A stretch of 64,000 nt of DNA from Syntrophobotulus glycolicus DSM 8271 (GTDB lineage: Bacteria > Bacillota > Desulfitobacteriia > Desulfitobacteriales > Syntrophobotulaceae). The notes under the pieces were generated by a model. It searched no databases. It saw nothing but the letters and a program-made list of their open reading frames with translations, and was not told the origin of the DNA. Below are positions 6,530 through 48,387 of the stretch, one piece after another. The stretch is taken from NCBI RefSeq assembly GCF_000190635.1, contig NC_015172.1:2976001-3040000 (forward strand), given 5' to 3'. A program made the translations under genes and the position numbers. Position 1 is the stretch's first letter; each line of letters begins with the position of its first letter.

Positions 6530-9500
6530 ATGATTAAACATTTTAATAAAGTATTAGTGGCCAACCGAGGGGAAATTGCGATAAGAGTCTTCAGGGCCTG
6601 CAAGGAACTGGGAATTCAAACGATTGCGATTTATTCCGAAGAAGACAAGTATGCTTTATTCAGGCTCAGAGCGGACGAATCCTATTTGATCGGCAAAAAG
6701 AAAAAGCCGATTGAGGTTTATCTGGGGATGGAAGAAATTATTGACCTCGCTGTGCGTAAAGGAGCAGATGCCATTCATCCCGGCTATGGTTTCTTATCGG
6801 AAAATCCGGAGTTTGCCCAAAAATGTTTTGAGGCAGGAATTGAGTTTATCGGTCCTTCGGTTCATTCCATGGTCAATATGGGGGATAAGATCAAATCCAA
6901 ACTCCTGGCCCACAAGGTCGGAGTACCTACCGTCCCGGGGATTGATAAACCGATGCAATCCGTCCGGGAAGCGATCCTTTTCGCTGAGGATTACGGGTAC
7001 CCTGTCATTCTGAAAGCGGCGGCAGGCGGCGGAGGCCGGGGCATGAGAGTGGTTTACAGTCAGAAAGACCTGGAACGCGAATTTTACAGTGCCCAAAATG
7101 AATCCCGTAAAGCTTTCGGCATTGACGAGATTTTCATTGAGAAATATCTGGATAGGCCCAAACATATCGAGGTCCAGATCCTTGCCGATAAACACGGTCA
7201 GATCGTTCATTTATATGAACGGGACTGTTCTATTCAAAGAAGGCATCAAAAAATTCTGGAATTTGCCCCCGCTATCGCGATATCCGCGGCATTGCGGGAA
7301 AGGCTGTGCAATGACGCCCTGAAAATCGCCCGGGCAGCGGAGTATATTAATGCCGGCACCATAGAGTTTTTGGTGGACAAAAACGAAAACCACTATTTTA
7401 TTGAAATGAACCCCCGCATCCAGGTCGAACATACCATTACGGAGATGATTACGGGTATTGACATTGTCCAAAGCCAGGTCTTAATTGCTCAAGGCTACCC
7501 GCTTGATTCCCCGGAAATCGGCATACCTTCCCAGGAATCGGTCGATCTCAGAGGCTACTCCATCCAGTGCCGCATAACAACAGAAGACCCTTTGGCAAAC
7601 TTTGCCCCCGATACAGGCAAAATAGAGACGTACCGGACAAGCTCAGGTTTTGGCATCCGGCTGGACGGCGGAAACGGCTACACAGGATCAACCATATCTC
7701 CCTATTACGACAGCCTGCTGGTAAAGATTATTTCCTGGTCCAGAACTTTTGAAAATGCGACGAGAAAAGCAATTCGTTCAATTAAGGAAATTAATATCAA
7801 GGGTGTAAAAACAAATGAAGCCTTTCTGATTAATGTTCTTAACCATGAAAGATTCCTGAGCGGGGAATGCGACACTCATTTTATTGATGATACGCCCGAG
7901 CTTTTTGACATCAAACCGAAAAAAGATTATGAAACCAAGATTCTCAGGTTCATCGGTGAAAAAATTGTCAATGAAGTCAGAAATACCAAAAAGGACTACA
8001 ATATCGCCCCTGTTCCCAAAATAACCGTGCCGGAAAATTTGACGGGCCTCAGACAAATTTTGCAGGAGAAAGGGGCCCGGGGATTTGCCGCCTGGGTAAA
8101 AAACCAGGAGAAGCTGCTTTTGACCGATACCTCTTATCGTGATGCCCACCAGTCTTTACTGGCGACCAAGGTCAGAACCAAGGACATGCTGAAGATCGCG
8201 GAGGCCACTTCTGTTCTGGCTAAGGATTTATTTTCCCTTGAAATGTGGGGAGGAGCTACCTTTGATGTTTCCTACAGGTTCTTAAGAGAGTCTCCCTGGA
8301 GAAGACTGCAGGCTTTGCGAAAGCTTATTCCCAATATTCCGTTTCAAATGCTTCTCAGGGGGTCCAATGCCGTTGGTTATACCAATTATCCCGATAACCT
8401 GATCAGAGCCTTTATCCAGGAATCGGCGGAACAGGGCATTGATATTTTCCGAATCTTTGACAGCCTGAACTGGCTTAAAGGGATGGAGATTGCTTTTGAT
8501 GAAGTCCTCAAGACCGGCAAGGTCGCCGAAGTGTGTTTTTGTTATACCGGCGATATATTGGATGAAAAACGGGATAAATTCTCTTTGCAGTATTATGTAA
8601 ACATCGCTAAGGAAATCGAACGAATGGGCGCTCATATCCTCGGGATCAAAGATATGGCCGGGCTGCTCAAGCCATATGCCGCCGCCAAGCTGATTCGGGC
8701 CCTCAAAGAAGAAATCTCTATTCCGATCCACCTTCATACTCATGATACCAGCGGCAATGGCGTGGCTACTCTGCTGATGGCTGCCGAAGAGGGCGTAGAT
8801 ATTGTGGATACTGCCTTTAACCCCCTAGCAGGCTTGACCAGCCAGCCGGCTTTGAACTCCATCGTCGCCGCTTTGGAAAACACCGAGCTTGATACAGGGA
8901 TCAATCTGATGGATATTCAAAAGATCTGCAGCTACTGGCGGGAAGCGCGAAGTGTGTACACCCAGTTTGAATCGGAATTAAAATCCGGGACGGCCGAGGT
9001 CTATAAATATGAAATCCCCGGCGGGCAGTATTCCAACCTTAAGCCCCAGGTTGAAAGCTTTGGTCTGGGCCATAAATTTCAAGAAATCAAGGAAATGTAC
9101 CGGGAGGTGAATGATCTTCTCGGAGATATCATCAAAGTGACCCCGACGTCCAAAGTGGTCGGAGACCTGGCCATATTTATGGTGCAAAACGGTCTGAACA
9201 GCGAGAACATTTTGGAAAAAGGGAGGAACCTCGCTTTTCCCGATTCTGTCGTCGACTATTTTCGCGGTATGATGGGCCAGCCGCTCGGCGGTTTTCCCGA
9301 AGATCTGCAAAGCATGGTTTTAAAGGGGGAAAAACCGATCACTTGCCGGCCCGGGGAAATCCTCAAGGATATCGATCTTGACCATATTACGGAGAAGCTC
9401 AACTCGGAGTTTATGTCCGAAGCCAACATCAGAAACGCCATAAGCTATGCTCTCTATCCCAAGGTATACAGTGATTATCTGCAGTCTTTATCAGAATACG

Positions 9501-14674: not shown

Positions 14675-14766
14675 TCATTCATAAGTCACGGCAATCTCGG
14701 CGATCATTTGCTCAAAATCATTGAGCTCATCAATAAATTGATTGATGACATTTTCATCGAATTGGG
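14675..14766 (-). pseudogene. 3' remnant of a host gene cut by the prophage end
   Basis: From the prophage terminus to a TGA at 14675, a 29-codon frame with normal coding character ends in FEQMIAEIAVTYE. It has no start of its own; its upstream part would lie where the prophage now is. At the other prophage end the flank carries a minus-strand promoter with a TetR-type operator pointing into the element but no coding sequence. The simplest reading is that a host gene, perhaps a TetR-like regulator convergent to the export operon, lost its body when the prophage inserted. The family of the remnant cannot be told from 29 residues. Confidence 0.45.
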
Positions 14767-15110: not shown

Positions 15111-15298
15111 TACTGCCCGCCTCCTTGTGTTAGTGTATTGACACGCTCTTCAAGCGCGGCAATCCTTGCATTTGCTTCAAGCAATTCCTCAAACAGTCCG
15201 GCCACGGCCTCATAGAGGTCGATATTTAGTTCTTGGGCCTTTTCTACCTTTTCCCTCTTGATTTCAGAGAGAGGCTTTGGATTTAACAATTCAGGCAT
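15110..15298 (-). CDS. Small coiled-coil phage protein
   Basis: A 62-residue protein with a predicted coiled coil over most of its length (ELLEANARIAALEERVNTL). Its ATG overlaps the stop of the retroelement target gene. GGAGGTG lies upstream inside that gene. Position behind a receptor-binding protein suggests a fibre accessory or chaperone, but no family is recognised. Confidence 0.6.
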   Translation of the reverse strand: MPELLNPKPLSEIKREKVEKAQELNIDLYEAVAGLFEELLEANARIAALEERVNTLTQGGGQ

Positions 15299-17166
15299 TA
15301 CTCAAACGCACCTCCAAATCCATTTATTGAGACTTCGCCTTCATATCCGGGGTTTTTGACAATATGGAAGCGGATGTTTACGCCCCATCTTGTCGCCGTT
15401 TTCTCCGCATTGATGAAGTTATAGACTCGGTTGATGAAGACCTGCGCTGTGATGTCTTCCCATGTCGGATTGTCGTCAAAAGCGTTATTACAAGCGTACA
15501 CGTAGGCCTCCGCGCCCTCGATGTGCCATGTTGGAGTGACAAGGACTTTGGTTGCCATCGCATCGGTCTCGAACGGAGTCGGGAACTCGAACAGGATTTC
15601 CGTCTCGTTCTTGCTGAAGTTGAAGACTCTAATCGACGTCGCAAAATTGGTGTCTACAGCCTCAATCTTGAGGGAGTGTGACCCGTTTGTCAGCATGAGC
15701 CACTTTTCCTCCGTGAGGGTGATTGTGGCCTCTGTGCCGAGCTCTGCGGTGTATGCTCGGATGACAGTATCGTCAATTTTTTCGGTGATAATCACCGCAT
15801 CGCCTTCGACGTCGTTCACAATGTAGGTCTTTGAGAAGGCTCCCGTCTGTTGACCGAGGTCTTCATCCACTCCCGAGATGCTCGGCGCGGCGTTTACGCG
15901 CTTGAAAGTGTATGTCCTGTACGCCGTGCCACCCTTGCCGTCGCTGACCTCAATCCGAGCCGTGTTGACCGAGTTGAGAGCTAAGCTGAAGAGCTTTTCG
16001 TTCGTGATTTCAAGCGTGAGCGTCTGTCCTTTCGGGGCGTTGTTTATCGTTCTGAGCGTTTCAGTATTGAGTTTCTCGACAACTGTCAGTGTGTCTCCGT
16101 CCGTGTCATTAACCGTGTACTCAATCTGAAAGCCGAGGTTTTTATCCCCGAGGTTTTGGTCACTTCCCGAGACGGTCGGAGCTGCGTTCACTCTTTGGAA
16201 CGTCCATACTCTTGTAGCCGTGCCGCCCTTGCCGTCATTGACCGTTACGGAGACGGTATGAGTGCCGAGGCTGAGGCTTGTGACCGGGACGTTGATGCTG
16301 TATGTTTGCCCCCGGACTGCATTCGTGAAGGTGTTTGTCTGCACGCCGTCGCGGTATTCCGTTACTGTGAGCACGTCGGACGCATCGGTGTCATTGACCG
16401 TGTAGGTGATTACAAAGTCCGCGTTTTTGTCCCCGAGATTTCGGTCTATGTCAGAAATCAATGGGGCAGTATTCAGTACTTCAAGGACGGGCCGCCAGCC
16501 GACGATGTCGGTGCGATTCGACTGCCCATTGTTGTTCCAATAGCGGGCCGAAATGTAGCCGCGAAGCGCACGGGTAGCGGTGTTGCCTGTGTAGGTCTCT
16601 TGACACCATGAATACATACCCGCCCAATGCCAAAAATCGCCATGAGTGCTCGTGTAGTCAGCCGTTGCAAGGGTAGAGTCAAGGTCTGCCGAAGTGGGAG
16701 CAGGGAGCCCTGTGATGACCTCCTCGCGGGTGACGAATCTGTCCCACTCGTTTGTAGCCGGAGAACCGCCGGAGTAGGCGTCCGTTCCGCTCCTGTAGTT
16801 GCTGCCGCCCGTCAGAGCTCTCAGCTTGTACTCGGCCCCGTCAATAGTGATGGTTTTGCCAAAAATACGATTGTCGCCGTTGAGGTCGTCCCACGACACA
16901 TTAGCCAGGATGACCCTGTCACAAATAAGAAGGGTCTTGTCTCCGTCCTTGATTTTGTGCCATTTGAGCTGATTCGCTTCAGTTCCCGGAGTGTTGCCGA
17001 TAGTCCAGCTTGACATCGTGGTCAAGGTGTTAAAGTCGGCAATGTCTCCGACTGTACTCTGACCTGTCGGCGCGGAGCTGATGCGCCACGGTTTAGTGGG
17101 GCGAGGTTGGATTACTCCGCTCTTGTACAGGCCGCCGAGATTGATTGTTCCGAGATATTCTGCCAA
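15298..17166 (-). CDS. DGR target: variable receptor-binding/tail-tip protein with C-type-lectin-like domain and three Ig-like repeats
   Basis: A 622-residue protein from the TTG at 17166, chosen because AAGGAGAG stands before it; the longer frame to 17250 has no ribosome site. Residues about 60-230 look like the C-type-lectin (formylglycine-enzyme-like) fold of retroelement targets, ending in the diversified segment RGYISARYWNNNGQSNR (residues 202-218) and GWRP. Three tandem repeats of about 95 residues follow, each opening NTAP/NAAP-x-S/I-x-G/D and containing YTVNDTD-like strands, then a C-terminal domain of about 110 residues. It should be exposed at the phage tail and bind the host surface. 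The variable segment is internal, not C-terminal. Its first 74 bases overlap the reverse transcriptase gene. Confidence 0.88.
   Translation of the reverse strand: MAEYLGTINLGGLYKSGVIQPRPTKPWRISSAPTGQSTVGDIADFNTLTTMSSWTIGNTPGTEANQLKWHKIKDGDKTLLICDRVILANVSWDDLNGDNRIFGKTITIDGAEYKLRALTGGSNYRSGTDAYSGGSPATNEWDRFVTREEVITGLPAPTSADLDSTLATADYTSTHGDFWHWAGMYSWCQETYTGNTATRALRGYISARYWNNNGQSNRTDIVGWRPVLEVLNTAPLISDIDRNLGDKNADFVITYTVNDTDASDVLTVTEYRDGVQTNTFTNAVRGQTYSINVPVTSLSLGTHTVSVTVNDGKGGTATRVWTFQRVNAAPTVSGSDQNLGDKNLGFQIEYTVNDTDGDTLTVVEKLNTETLRTINNAPKGQTLTLEITNEKLFSLALNSVNTARIEVSDGKGGTAYRTYTFKRVNAAPSISGVDEDLGQQTGAFSKTYIVNDVEGDAVIITEKIDDTVIRAYTAELGTEATITLTEEKWLMLTNGSHSLKIEAVDTNFATSIRVFNFSKNETEILFEFPTPFETDAMATKVLVTPTWHIEGAEAYVYACNNAFDDNPTWEDITAQVFINRVYNFINAEKTATRWGVNIRFHIVKNPGYEGEVSINGFGGAFE
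16488..16581 (-). repeat. DGR variable repeat (VR)
   Basis: The 94 bp match the template repeat at 18361-18454 except at 16505, 16511, 16553, 16566 and 16574. On the coding strand every difference is at an A of the template (two A to T, three A to C). The changes give Asn198Thr, Ile201Leu, Asn205Ile, Asn219Thr and Asn221Ile relative to the template-encoded sequence. The downstream end on the coding strand, GTCGGCTGGCGGCCCG, is unchanged and GC-rich, as expected of the initiation-of-mutagenic-homing region. Confidence 0.95.
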
Positions 17167-18211
17167 AATAAATCTCTCCTTCCACTTTGATATAGGGGTA
17201 TGGTGCGAAAATCTTCTTGCAGAGGTTGAAGCTGCATGACCAGCGTGCATATCCGAGCCATGAGCTCACGGCCTGAACGACTTCCTTCTTGGTCATTTCC
17301 CCGGCCTTTTGCTTTTCGTCCATACGCTTAATGCGTCGCTTCATCGCCTGTTTTGATTTATCCCTCAATAGGCGGTGAGTCGTCCAGATTTTGAAGCCAT
17401 AGGCATTGACGCCCTGCTCCAACGGGAAAATCTTGGTCTTTTGGTTAGTCTCAAGCCCGAGTCGCTCCTCAAGGAACGTCTTGATTTTTTTGAGGTACTC
17501 CTGGGCCTGTTCCTTCGTTGGCGTCACGATGCAAACATCGTCCATGTACCGGGTGTAATACTTCACCTTGAGGAACCTCACGCAATACTGGTCGAGCTTG
17601 TCGAGGTAGATGTTCGCCATGTCCTGCGAGGTCACGTTCCCGAGCGGTATTCCTTTTTCTCCTTCCGGGCTTGAGTCAATGATTTTGTTAAGGAGCCGGA
17701 GAAGTTTTTCGTCCTTGATTTTCTTTTGAAGGATTCTCTTCAGGATGTCCCTGTCGATAGAGTAAAAGAACTTTTTGACATCTATTTTGAGAATCCATCC
17801 TCCGCCGTGCTTCCATTTGCACAACCTCATGTTATGCTGAAGGTGTTCGACCGCCCTGTGATTCCCTTTGTCCTCTTGGCAAGCAAACGAGCCTTTGATA
17901 AATACCGGCTTATAGACTTCCTTGAGAACGCTGTGAACCGCGAATTGCACGGTCTTGTCCCGAATATGAGGAGCGGAGATATTTCTCTCTTTCGGCTCGA
18001 AAACCTTGAATCGAATGTACTTCCCGACCTCATATTCTTCATCCTTGAGGTCTCGCCACAAGTGGACGAGATTCCTCTCCCTGCACATATCGAAGATGAC
18101 GGCTTCCTTTTGGAATTTCCGCGCTCCTCGTTGTGTCTCACGGTATCCTTTCGCTATGTTGTCGTAGTCAACAACTGCGTCAAACAGCGGGCTTTTAGTA
18201 GTGTTCGTCAT
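17093..18211 (-). CDS. DGR reverse transcriptase
   Basis: A 372-residue protein from the ATG at 18211 (AAGGGATG upstream; an in-frame ATG at 18259 has no ribosome site). Reverse transcriptase motifs are visible in order: GWILKIDVKKFFYSID, IPLGNVTSQDMANIYLD and YTRYMDDVCIV with the catalytic YMDD. The I/LGxxxSQ form of motif 4, where other retroelements have QG, is the retroelement-family signature and is linked to low fidelity at adenines. The C-terminal thumb region runs to about residue 345. The gene lies 150 bp downstream of the template repeat and its 3' end overlaps the start of the target gene, so both sit in the late operon. Confidence 0.95.
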   Translation of the reverse strand: MTNTTKSPLFDAVVDYDNIAKGYRETQRGARKFQKEAVIFDMCRERNLVHLWRDLKDEEYEVGKYIRFKVFEPKERNISAPHIRDKTVQFAVHSVLKEVYKPVFIKGSFACQEDKGNHRAVEHLQHNMRLCKWKHGGGWILKIDVKKFFYSIDRDILKRILQKKIKDEKLLRLLNKIIDSSPEGEKGIPLGNVTSQDMANIYLDKLDQYCVRFLKVKYYTRYMDDVCIVTPTKEQAQEYLKKIKTFLEERLGLETNQKTKIFPLEQGVNAYGFKIWTTHRLLRDKSKQAMKRRIKRMDEKQKAGEMTKKEVVQAVSSWLGYARWSCSFNLCKKIFAPYPYIKVEGEIYFGRISRNNQSRRPVQERSNPTSPH

Positions 18212-18360
18212 AATGGCATCCCTTTCATGAAGCGGCTTGGCAGTTATGACATTGTTCATGTGTTTACACCGTTTCCACAGTGAAGGATTGCCCCTCCCTT
18301 GAAGTATAACAAGGACTCGCCGATGAAGCCGTGACCGCATCGGACGAAAGACTTACAGGG

Positions 18361-18454
18361 CGGGCCGCCAGCCGACGTTGTCGTTGCGATTCGACTGCCC
18401 ATTGTTGTTCCAATAGCGGGCCGAATTGTAGCCGCGAATCGCACGGTTAGCGGT
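18361..18454 (-). ncRNA. DGR template repeat (TR) and template RNA core
   Basis: This 94-bp copy lies between the avd-like gene and the reverse transcriptase and is not in an expressed frame. Read on the minus strand it encodes the undiversified version TANRAIRGYNSARYWNNN, continuing to GWRPAL and a stop. It is rich in AAC/AAT codons, the ones adenine mutagenesis spreads most widely. The template RNA presumably includes the spacer down to 18211, which is required for cDNA priming in the Bordetella phage system. Confidence 0.93.
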
Positions 18455-18457
18455 CAA

Positions 18458-18473
18458 ACAGGGACAACCCTGT
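18458..18473. other. Hairpin abutting the template repeat
   Basis: ACAGGG-ACAA-CCCTGT is a perfect 6-bp hairpin three bases outside the template repeat, between it and the avd-like stop codon. It could mark the 5' boundary of the template RNA or shield it from translating ribosomes; the role is inferred from position only. Confidence 0.55.
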
Positions 18474-18479
18474 GAGTAG

Positions 18480-18815
18480 TTACTTTTTCCCGTAGTGGGC
18501 CTTTATCAGACCCCCGCATATGCGCCCGAGCTCGGAGATTTTCTCTTGCAGCTCATAGGCTTTCTTTTGGGTGATGTACTTCTGATTCCTCGCCATCCCA
18601 AAATGAATGAGCAGGAGCTTCAGGTCTGCGTCCACCTCCCGGAGGTAATGGATGCGGTCATCCGTCTTGAGTGCGCTGTACATCATAGTGTTTCGGATGA
18701 CCCTGTAACATGCCTGTTTTATCTCTTGGCAGAGGCAAAACTTCTCGGACTGCGGGAAGTTCCTCAAAAGGGGATAAATCCTGTCAAGGAAGATTTCAGC
18801 TTTCTTCTGAAGCAT
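18480..18815 (-). CDS. avd: Avd-like DGR accessory protein (four-helix bundle)
   Basis: A 111-residue basic, all-helical protein (MLQKKAEIFLDRIYPLLRNF..., FCLCQEIKQACYRVIRN..., IHYLREVDADLKLLLIHF..., YELQEKISELGRICGGLIKAHYGKK). It has the length and four-helix pattern of Avd, the pentameric partner that binds the reverse transcriptase and template RNA in retroelements. GGAG stands six bases before the ATG at 18815; a GTG at 18827 is the alternative start. It overlaps the end of the preceding gene and lies directly before the template repeat, the usual place for avd. Confidence 0.88.
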   Translation of the reverse strand: MLQKKAEIFLDRIYPLLRNFPQSEKFCLCQEIKQACYRVIRNTMMYSALKTDDRIHYLREVDADLKLLLIHFGMARNQKYITQKKAYELQEKISELGRICGGLIKAHYGKK

Positions 18816-19065
18816 GGAAGGCTCCACGAATCAAACACCTCTTTTCCCGCAATCTCTCAAGTTCTTGGACGTCTCCGTAATACTCGCATCCGTAGTCGGT
18901 GAGCTTGATTGTCGCTTTCTTGTCTGTCCCTGTGATGATGCCGGAGATGATGAAGTCATCATCCTTGAGGCCGGAGCAATCACCGTCGCATAAAGGAACC
19001 AATTCACTGAACAAGTTCCCTATCATGCAGCTCAGCTCCCTCCTCGGGCACGCCACTTTATACAT
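18796..19065 (-). CDS. Hypothetical phage protein
   Basis: An 89-residue protein starting MYKVACPRRELSCMIGNLF, with ATG overlapping the stop of the previous gene (ATGTATAA). It contains five Cys (CP, SC, CDGDCSG, YGC, KRC) and a segment EYYGDVQELERLREKRCLI. No family is recognised. Location between fibre-region genes and avd suggests a tail-fibre or retroelement accessory, without direct evidence. Confidence 0.6.
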   Translation of the reverse strand: MYKVACPRRELSCMIGNLFSELVPLCDGDCSGLKDDDFIISGIITGTDKKATIKLTDYGCEYYGDVQELERLREKRCLIRGAFHASEES

Positions 19066-48377: not shown

Positions 48378-48387
48378 TTTATCTTCA

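Follow-up and report, generated by a model that had tools for sequence, protein, structure and literature searches.

A diversity-generating retroelement with an internal variable repeat in a Mu-like prophage of Syntrophobotulus glycolicus

Does the tail end of a Mu-like prophage in Syntrophobotulus glycolicus DSM 8271 carry a genuine diversity-generating retroelement (DGR), and how does this element compare with those already described? We addressed these questions in a window of 64,000 nucleotides (contig NC_015172.1, positions 2,976,001 to 3,040,000), for which an original prediction had placed a complete DGR at 15298-18815. The element is indeed complete, and it is slightly longer than proposed because avd reaches 18827. 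It occupies 15298-18827 of the minus strand, on which its parts given below and the prophage lie, and consists of avd, a template repeat (TR), a structured 139-nt spacer, a DGR-type reverse transcriptase (RT), and a target gene that contains a 94-bp variable repeat (VR). We are highly confident that it is an authentic DGR, belonging to a Mushu-like transposable prophage, and that it is probably functional.

The predicted Avd-like gene (avd, 18480-18827, 115 aa) matched Pfam bAvd with an E value of 6.6e-28 and the PHROG 'Avd protein of DGR' with an E value of 6.6e-26. The RT (17093-18211, 372 aa from the ATG at 18211 within an open frame extending up to 18340) matched RVT_1 (E 2.7e-22), and its translation contains the YMDD and LGNVTSQ motifs, in agreement with the prediction of an RT with catalytic motifs. 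Its best PDB match was 8ub7_A, 'Reverse transcriptase' (E 7.9e-52), which we take to be the BPP-1 bRT. The target gene (15298-17166) likely starts at the TTG at 17166, giving a protein of 622 aa.

A general repeat search that did not assume a DGR recovered the TR (18361-18454, followed by IMH* at about 18351-18367) and the VR (16488-16581, codons 196-226 of the target), and the two were then aligned. They differ at five of 94 positions, and all five differences fall on adenines of the TR coding strand (P = 4.8e-4, given 22 A among the 94 positions). From TR to VR, the changes are A to C at 16574, 16566, and 16511 and A to T at 16553 and 16505. The two A-to-T and three A-to-C differences originally described were thus confirmed, while the homology itself extends some 10 bp past the 94, where the C-to-T and GT-to-TG differences of the family (the IMH/IMH* distinction) occur. 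All five VR changes are non-synonymous (N198T, I201L, N205I, N219T, and N221I). A whole-genome search for a second VR elsewhere returned only four VRs and four TRs.

We then compared this pair with relatives gathered by searches with both the RT and the target. The 27 TR/VR pairs compared, among which L068 and L079 represent one pair, show changes at 311 of 589 TR adenines as against 6 of 1910 other bases, a ratio that is somewhat flattered because the segments were picked with a score tolerating changes at A. The 5 of 22 TR adenines changed in our element lie at the low end of this family. A comparison free of that selection bias is offered by prophages L086 and L087: outside the VR their identity is 97%, and all 14 of their VR differences fall on TR adenines; similarly, L016 and L023 show 0.22 differences per site within the VR versus 0.05 outside. 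These data bear out the proposed hallmark of adenine-specific mutagenic retrohoming. As a separate observation, the VR and TR of L023 (7760-7870), a Lutispora thermophila prophage, differ in length by 3 bp near the 3' end, unlike those of other members.

The TR-RT spacer (18212-18350), 139 nt long here versus 144 nt in BPP-1, has a conserved RNA structure with hairpins at 18318-18346 and 18267-18282. Its consensus contains 12 pairs with compensatory change, and the covariation score of 0.331 was reached by none of 500 shuffles (0.189 in shuffles), while slid-partner controls gave at most 0.101. This agrees with the published role of the folded spacer, which recruits RT-Avd (PMC12875486).

The target protein consists of a lectin-like domain at about residues 1-230 followed by a chain of Ig-like domains that continues to the C-terminus. 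It matched Big_9 in Pfam, PHROG 36643 (E 1.6e-286), and the Hoc-like PHROG 10993; a Pfam search of the lectin-like domain returned no named family. Since the VR fell at pLDDT <50 in the full-length model, the variable domain was modelled separately from a deeper alignment, which gave an AF2 model with a mean pLDDT of 95. The nearest PDB structures in a fold search were PvdO, the Treponema variable protein TvpA, and formylglycine-generating enzymes (FGE), all weak matches below conventional significance (best E 0.011). The VR is thus predicted to sit in a domain with the C-type lectin fold, as had been anticipated for this target. By its architecture, an N-terminal C-type-lectin-like domain and then Ig-like domains, and its identity of about 66% to the tentaclin of Faecalibacterium phage FP_Mushu, the target is a tentaclin. 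Apart from a weak match to the Ig region, the target was found in no other genome in a set of 100 covering relatives of the host. We also observed in the host itself a 1893-aa ORF with a domain (C1:3104716-3105111) that is 45% identical to parts of target residues 75-236 and has no TR/VR match at the DNA level; this lectin-like domain is possibly, judging from the protein comparison, a cellular relative of the target domain.

Unlike the VR of BPP-1, which is C-terminal, the VR here is internal. Its last codon is number 226 of 622, and its position is similarly internal in relatives with complete targets. Hairpins or cruciforms 3' of the VR are common in phage DGRs, where they help efficiency and are not strictly required. 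In BPP-1, a GC-rich hairpin just 3' of the VR is needed for full homing efficiency (PMC3240598, PMC12875486), and such cis elements have been suggested as the reason that VRs sit at gene ends (Roux et al., PMC8144416). A scan for post-VR stems of at least 6 bp found none in 25 of 26 family members; the same scan detected the hairpins of BPP-1 and phage ACA1 and missed an imperfect one in BalMu-1, so imperfect stems may escape it. DNA folding of the post-VR segment of our element likewise revealed nothing comparable to BPP-1 (z of -1.65 here vs -3.88). The family does share its repeat ends, with CCCGCCYTGT at the TR end versus CCCGTCCTTG at the VR end and a single exception, the L069 VR, which retains C. 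This difference matches the IMH*/IMH distinction of BPP-1 (PMC3240598).

Beyond the end of the repeat, a nucleotide-conserved element straddles the VR end (codons 226-238, 16453-16491; IMH and beyond), where synonymous codon conservation peaks. In target pairs below 80% identity, residues that are identical use the same codon at a frequency of 0.86 at codons 227-233, as compared with 0.41 gene-wide. Fixed and free third positions alternate: leucine is invariably encoded by CTT at codon 228 and by CTG at 231, whereas variation is seen at codons 230, 235, and 237. These observations suggest that codons 226-238 may be a retrohoming signal written into the coding sequence, replacing the BPP-1 hairpin. 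On this basis we put forward, as a proposal with about even chances of being correct, that the VR of tentaclin DGRs could shift to mid-gene where a coding element just after the VR (consensus CCCGTCCTTGARRTNCTGAAYNCTGCYCCNCTGATNTCTGAY), read by its sequence and not its structure, replaced the hairpin landmark of the BPP-1 type. We found no description of a coding-embedded homing signal in the literature searched, which is not proof of novelty.

The DGR lies at the late (tail) end of a 33.6-kb Mu-like prophage (14767-48377) with TG...CA ends, and at each of these ends the identity to the three other copies breaks off sharply. Mu transposase, MuB-like, Gam, Mu portal, protease I, gpT, gpF, and baseplate genes, together with the dispersed copies, substantiate the Mu-like assignment. 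No resolvase or invertase gene was found in the prophage at 14767-48377, consistent with the suggestion that it does without an invertible system of the Mu type. The four copies in the 3.4-Mb genome have their RTs at 550393, 2638569, 2993096 (the window copy), and 3167316, and their DGR genes are all open and identical. Five private SNPs, all transitions, were detected among the four (26830, 27859, 29319, 33084, and 47008), and the window copy carries none of these alleles. No 5-bp target duplication was found at the two ends of any of the four copies (14762-14766 and 48378-48382 in the window); the 5-bp end sequences instead pair across copies in a four-cycle (ATTTA, TTTAT, TTGGG, and GCCTG), and when the paired ends are rejoined, open frames 526, 459 (hemA-like), and 362 aa long reappear. 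The flanks of the four copies have been exchanged, through either recombination between copies or misassembly.

The four copies share one TR sequence and one VR sequence. As the VRs are identical despite five SNPs elsewhere, no mutagenic homing has been recorded since the copies spread, and the DGR could be off in the lysogen or dead, or else variation could be hidden by consensus assembly. In Mushu, VR variation is seen in virion reads (PMC5883640), and in a second study the VR peak was absent from the initial bacterial sequencing sample (PMC11792537). Because the VR of this relative varies in virions without such a peak in the initial bacterial sample, we favor quiescence in the lysogen as the likelier reading. 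A DGR that is intact in sequence but silent, recently inactivated and with a VR recording one old homing event, would fit both the four identical VRs, maintained while five private SNPs arose elsewhere, and the small number of adenines changed. Against this, the genes are all open and identical in four copies, the TR, spacer RNA, and IMH hold the conservation of the family, and in published relatives the DGR is silent in lysogens although the virions show variation (PMC5883640, PMC11792537), making inactivation improbable. We also considered a repeat that arose by chance next to an RT of the group II intron or retron type, given that the RT also matches group II intron RTs. This candidate was refuted by the Avd match, the adenine bias of TR and VR, the conservation across the family, and the IMH/IMH* pair, and its probability is negligible.

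Two further alternatives concern what the DGR diversifies and how it finds its VR. The lectin-type domain foreseen for the target stands, whereas the role of a tail receptor-binding protein that accompanied it is not established, since close homologues have been described either way: one is annotated as Hoc-like capsid decoration (PMC5883640), and tentaclins have been proposed as receptor-binding proteins (PMC10743442). Were the target a capsid decoration and not a tail receptor-binding protein, the DGR would alter particle adhesion and not host range. The Hoc-like PHROG match to residues 453-649 of the target open frame, the annotation in Mushu, and the Ig-like chain in models and fold matches all fit such a protein. 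On the other hand, the target gene is found past the genes for baseplate J and P2 I-like proteins, where Mu has its tail fibre genes; the sole PDB match of the target profile is to a tail fibre protein (31he) and covers the Ig part; and T4 Hoc is without a lectin domain (PMC10743442). We judge capsid decoration to be a serious contender whose chances fall somewhat short of even. The synonymous peak after the VR could similarly have a cause other than homing, such as recombination between phages, codon bias, or an overlapping signal, particularly as one family only was analysed and the segment is linked to homing through its sequence. Nevertheless, fixed and free codons alternate, which makes codon bias or block transfer unfit as an explanation, the amino-acid-corrected codon excess at 228-238 lies above all 100,000 random draws, and the peak coincides exactly with the point where TR/VR homology ends. 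A non-homing cause is accordingly rather doubtful, and a coding-embedded homing signal remains our preferred interpretation of the peak.

By analogy with BPP-1, an RNA covering the end of avd, the TR, and the structured spacer would be copied by an RT-Avd complex that makes errors at adenines. The resulting cDNA would replace the VR within the target gene, steered by the IMH at the VR 3' end, and the TR would be spared by its differing IMH*. The N-terminal lectin-like domain of the tentaclin, a virion protein that would be held out on its Ig-like domains, would thereby acquire a diversified patch. The activity of this copy, its timing, and the place of its target in the virion are what we infer from the analysis.

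How much of this is already known? DGRs in transposable phages have been published for Mushu (PMC5883640, PMC11792537, PMC10805732) and for hankyphage (PMC6199706, PMC12135933), and Toussaint 2013, which deals with Mu-like phages of Firmicutes, names such DGRs in its title, so the novelty that the original prediction implied for such an association does not hold. The internal position of the VR, the fourfold occurrence of the prophage, and the identity of the four VRs were not part of that prediction. The observation is real, was described correctly, and is mostly known already; the DGR belongs to a described group. Its closest named relative is FP_Mushu (Mushuvirus mushu), a Mu-like phage with a published DGR that has the same avd-TR-RT-target order at the tail end, an internal VR, an RT 49-53% identical to ours, an Avd 61% identical, and the related target noted above; it differs in host lineage and is a separate phage species. 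The VRs of Faecalibacterium phages were stated to lie at the 3' end of genes (PMC5883640), contrary to the internal VR of the Mushu target in our analysis. We also observed that the annotated start of the Hoc-like gene of Mushu (L065, 7343-9199), at 7475, leaves out some 44 conserved residues at the N-terminus; the start shared by the family is at 7343. The described tentaclins, the Mushu target included, share the N-terminal C-type-lectin domain with the VR and the Ig-like domains that follow (PMC10743442). With BPP-1, our element shares the avd-TR-spacer-RT block, a spacer of similar length, adenine-only changes, and IMH/IMH*; it differs in that the target lies downstream of the RT, no GC-rich hairpin follows the VR, and an Ig-bearing target stands in place of Mtd. 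The hankyphage of Bacteroides likewise has its DGR in a Mu-like phage (PMC6199706, PMC12135933), but it is of another lineage and its described target is a tail fibre. Bacillus phage BalMu-1, also a transposable phage with a DGR, differs in that its target precedes avd and its VR lies at the 3' end of the gene.

Together, these results add to the transposable-phage group one well-supported DGR that does not come from a gut Faecalibacterium phage. The presence of four identical copies on a single chromosome points to a DGR that is probably quiet in the lysogen, while published relatives vary the VR in virions. The family further offers a naturally occurring example of an internal VR that lacks the downstream hairpin, and the putative coding-embedded element beside this VR is a feature worth experiment.
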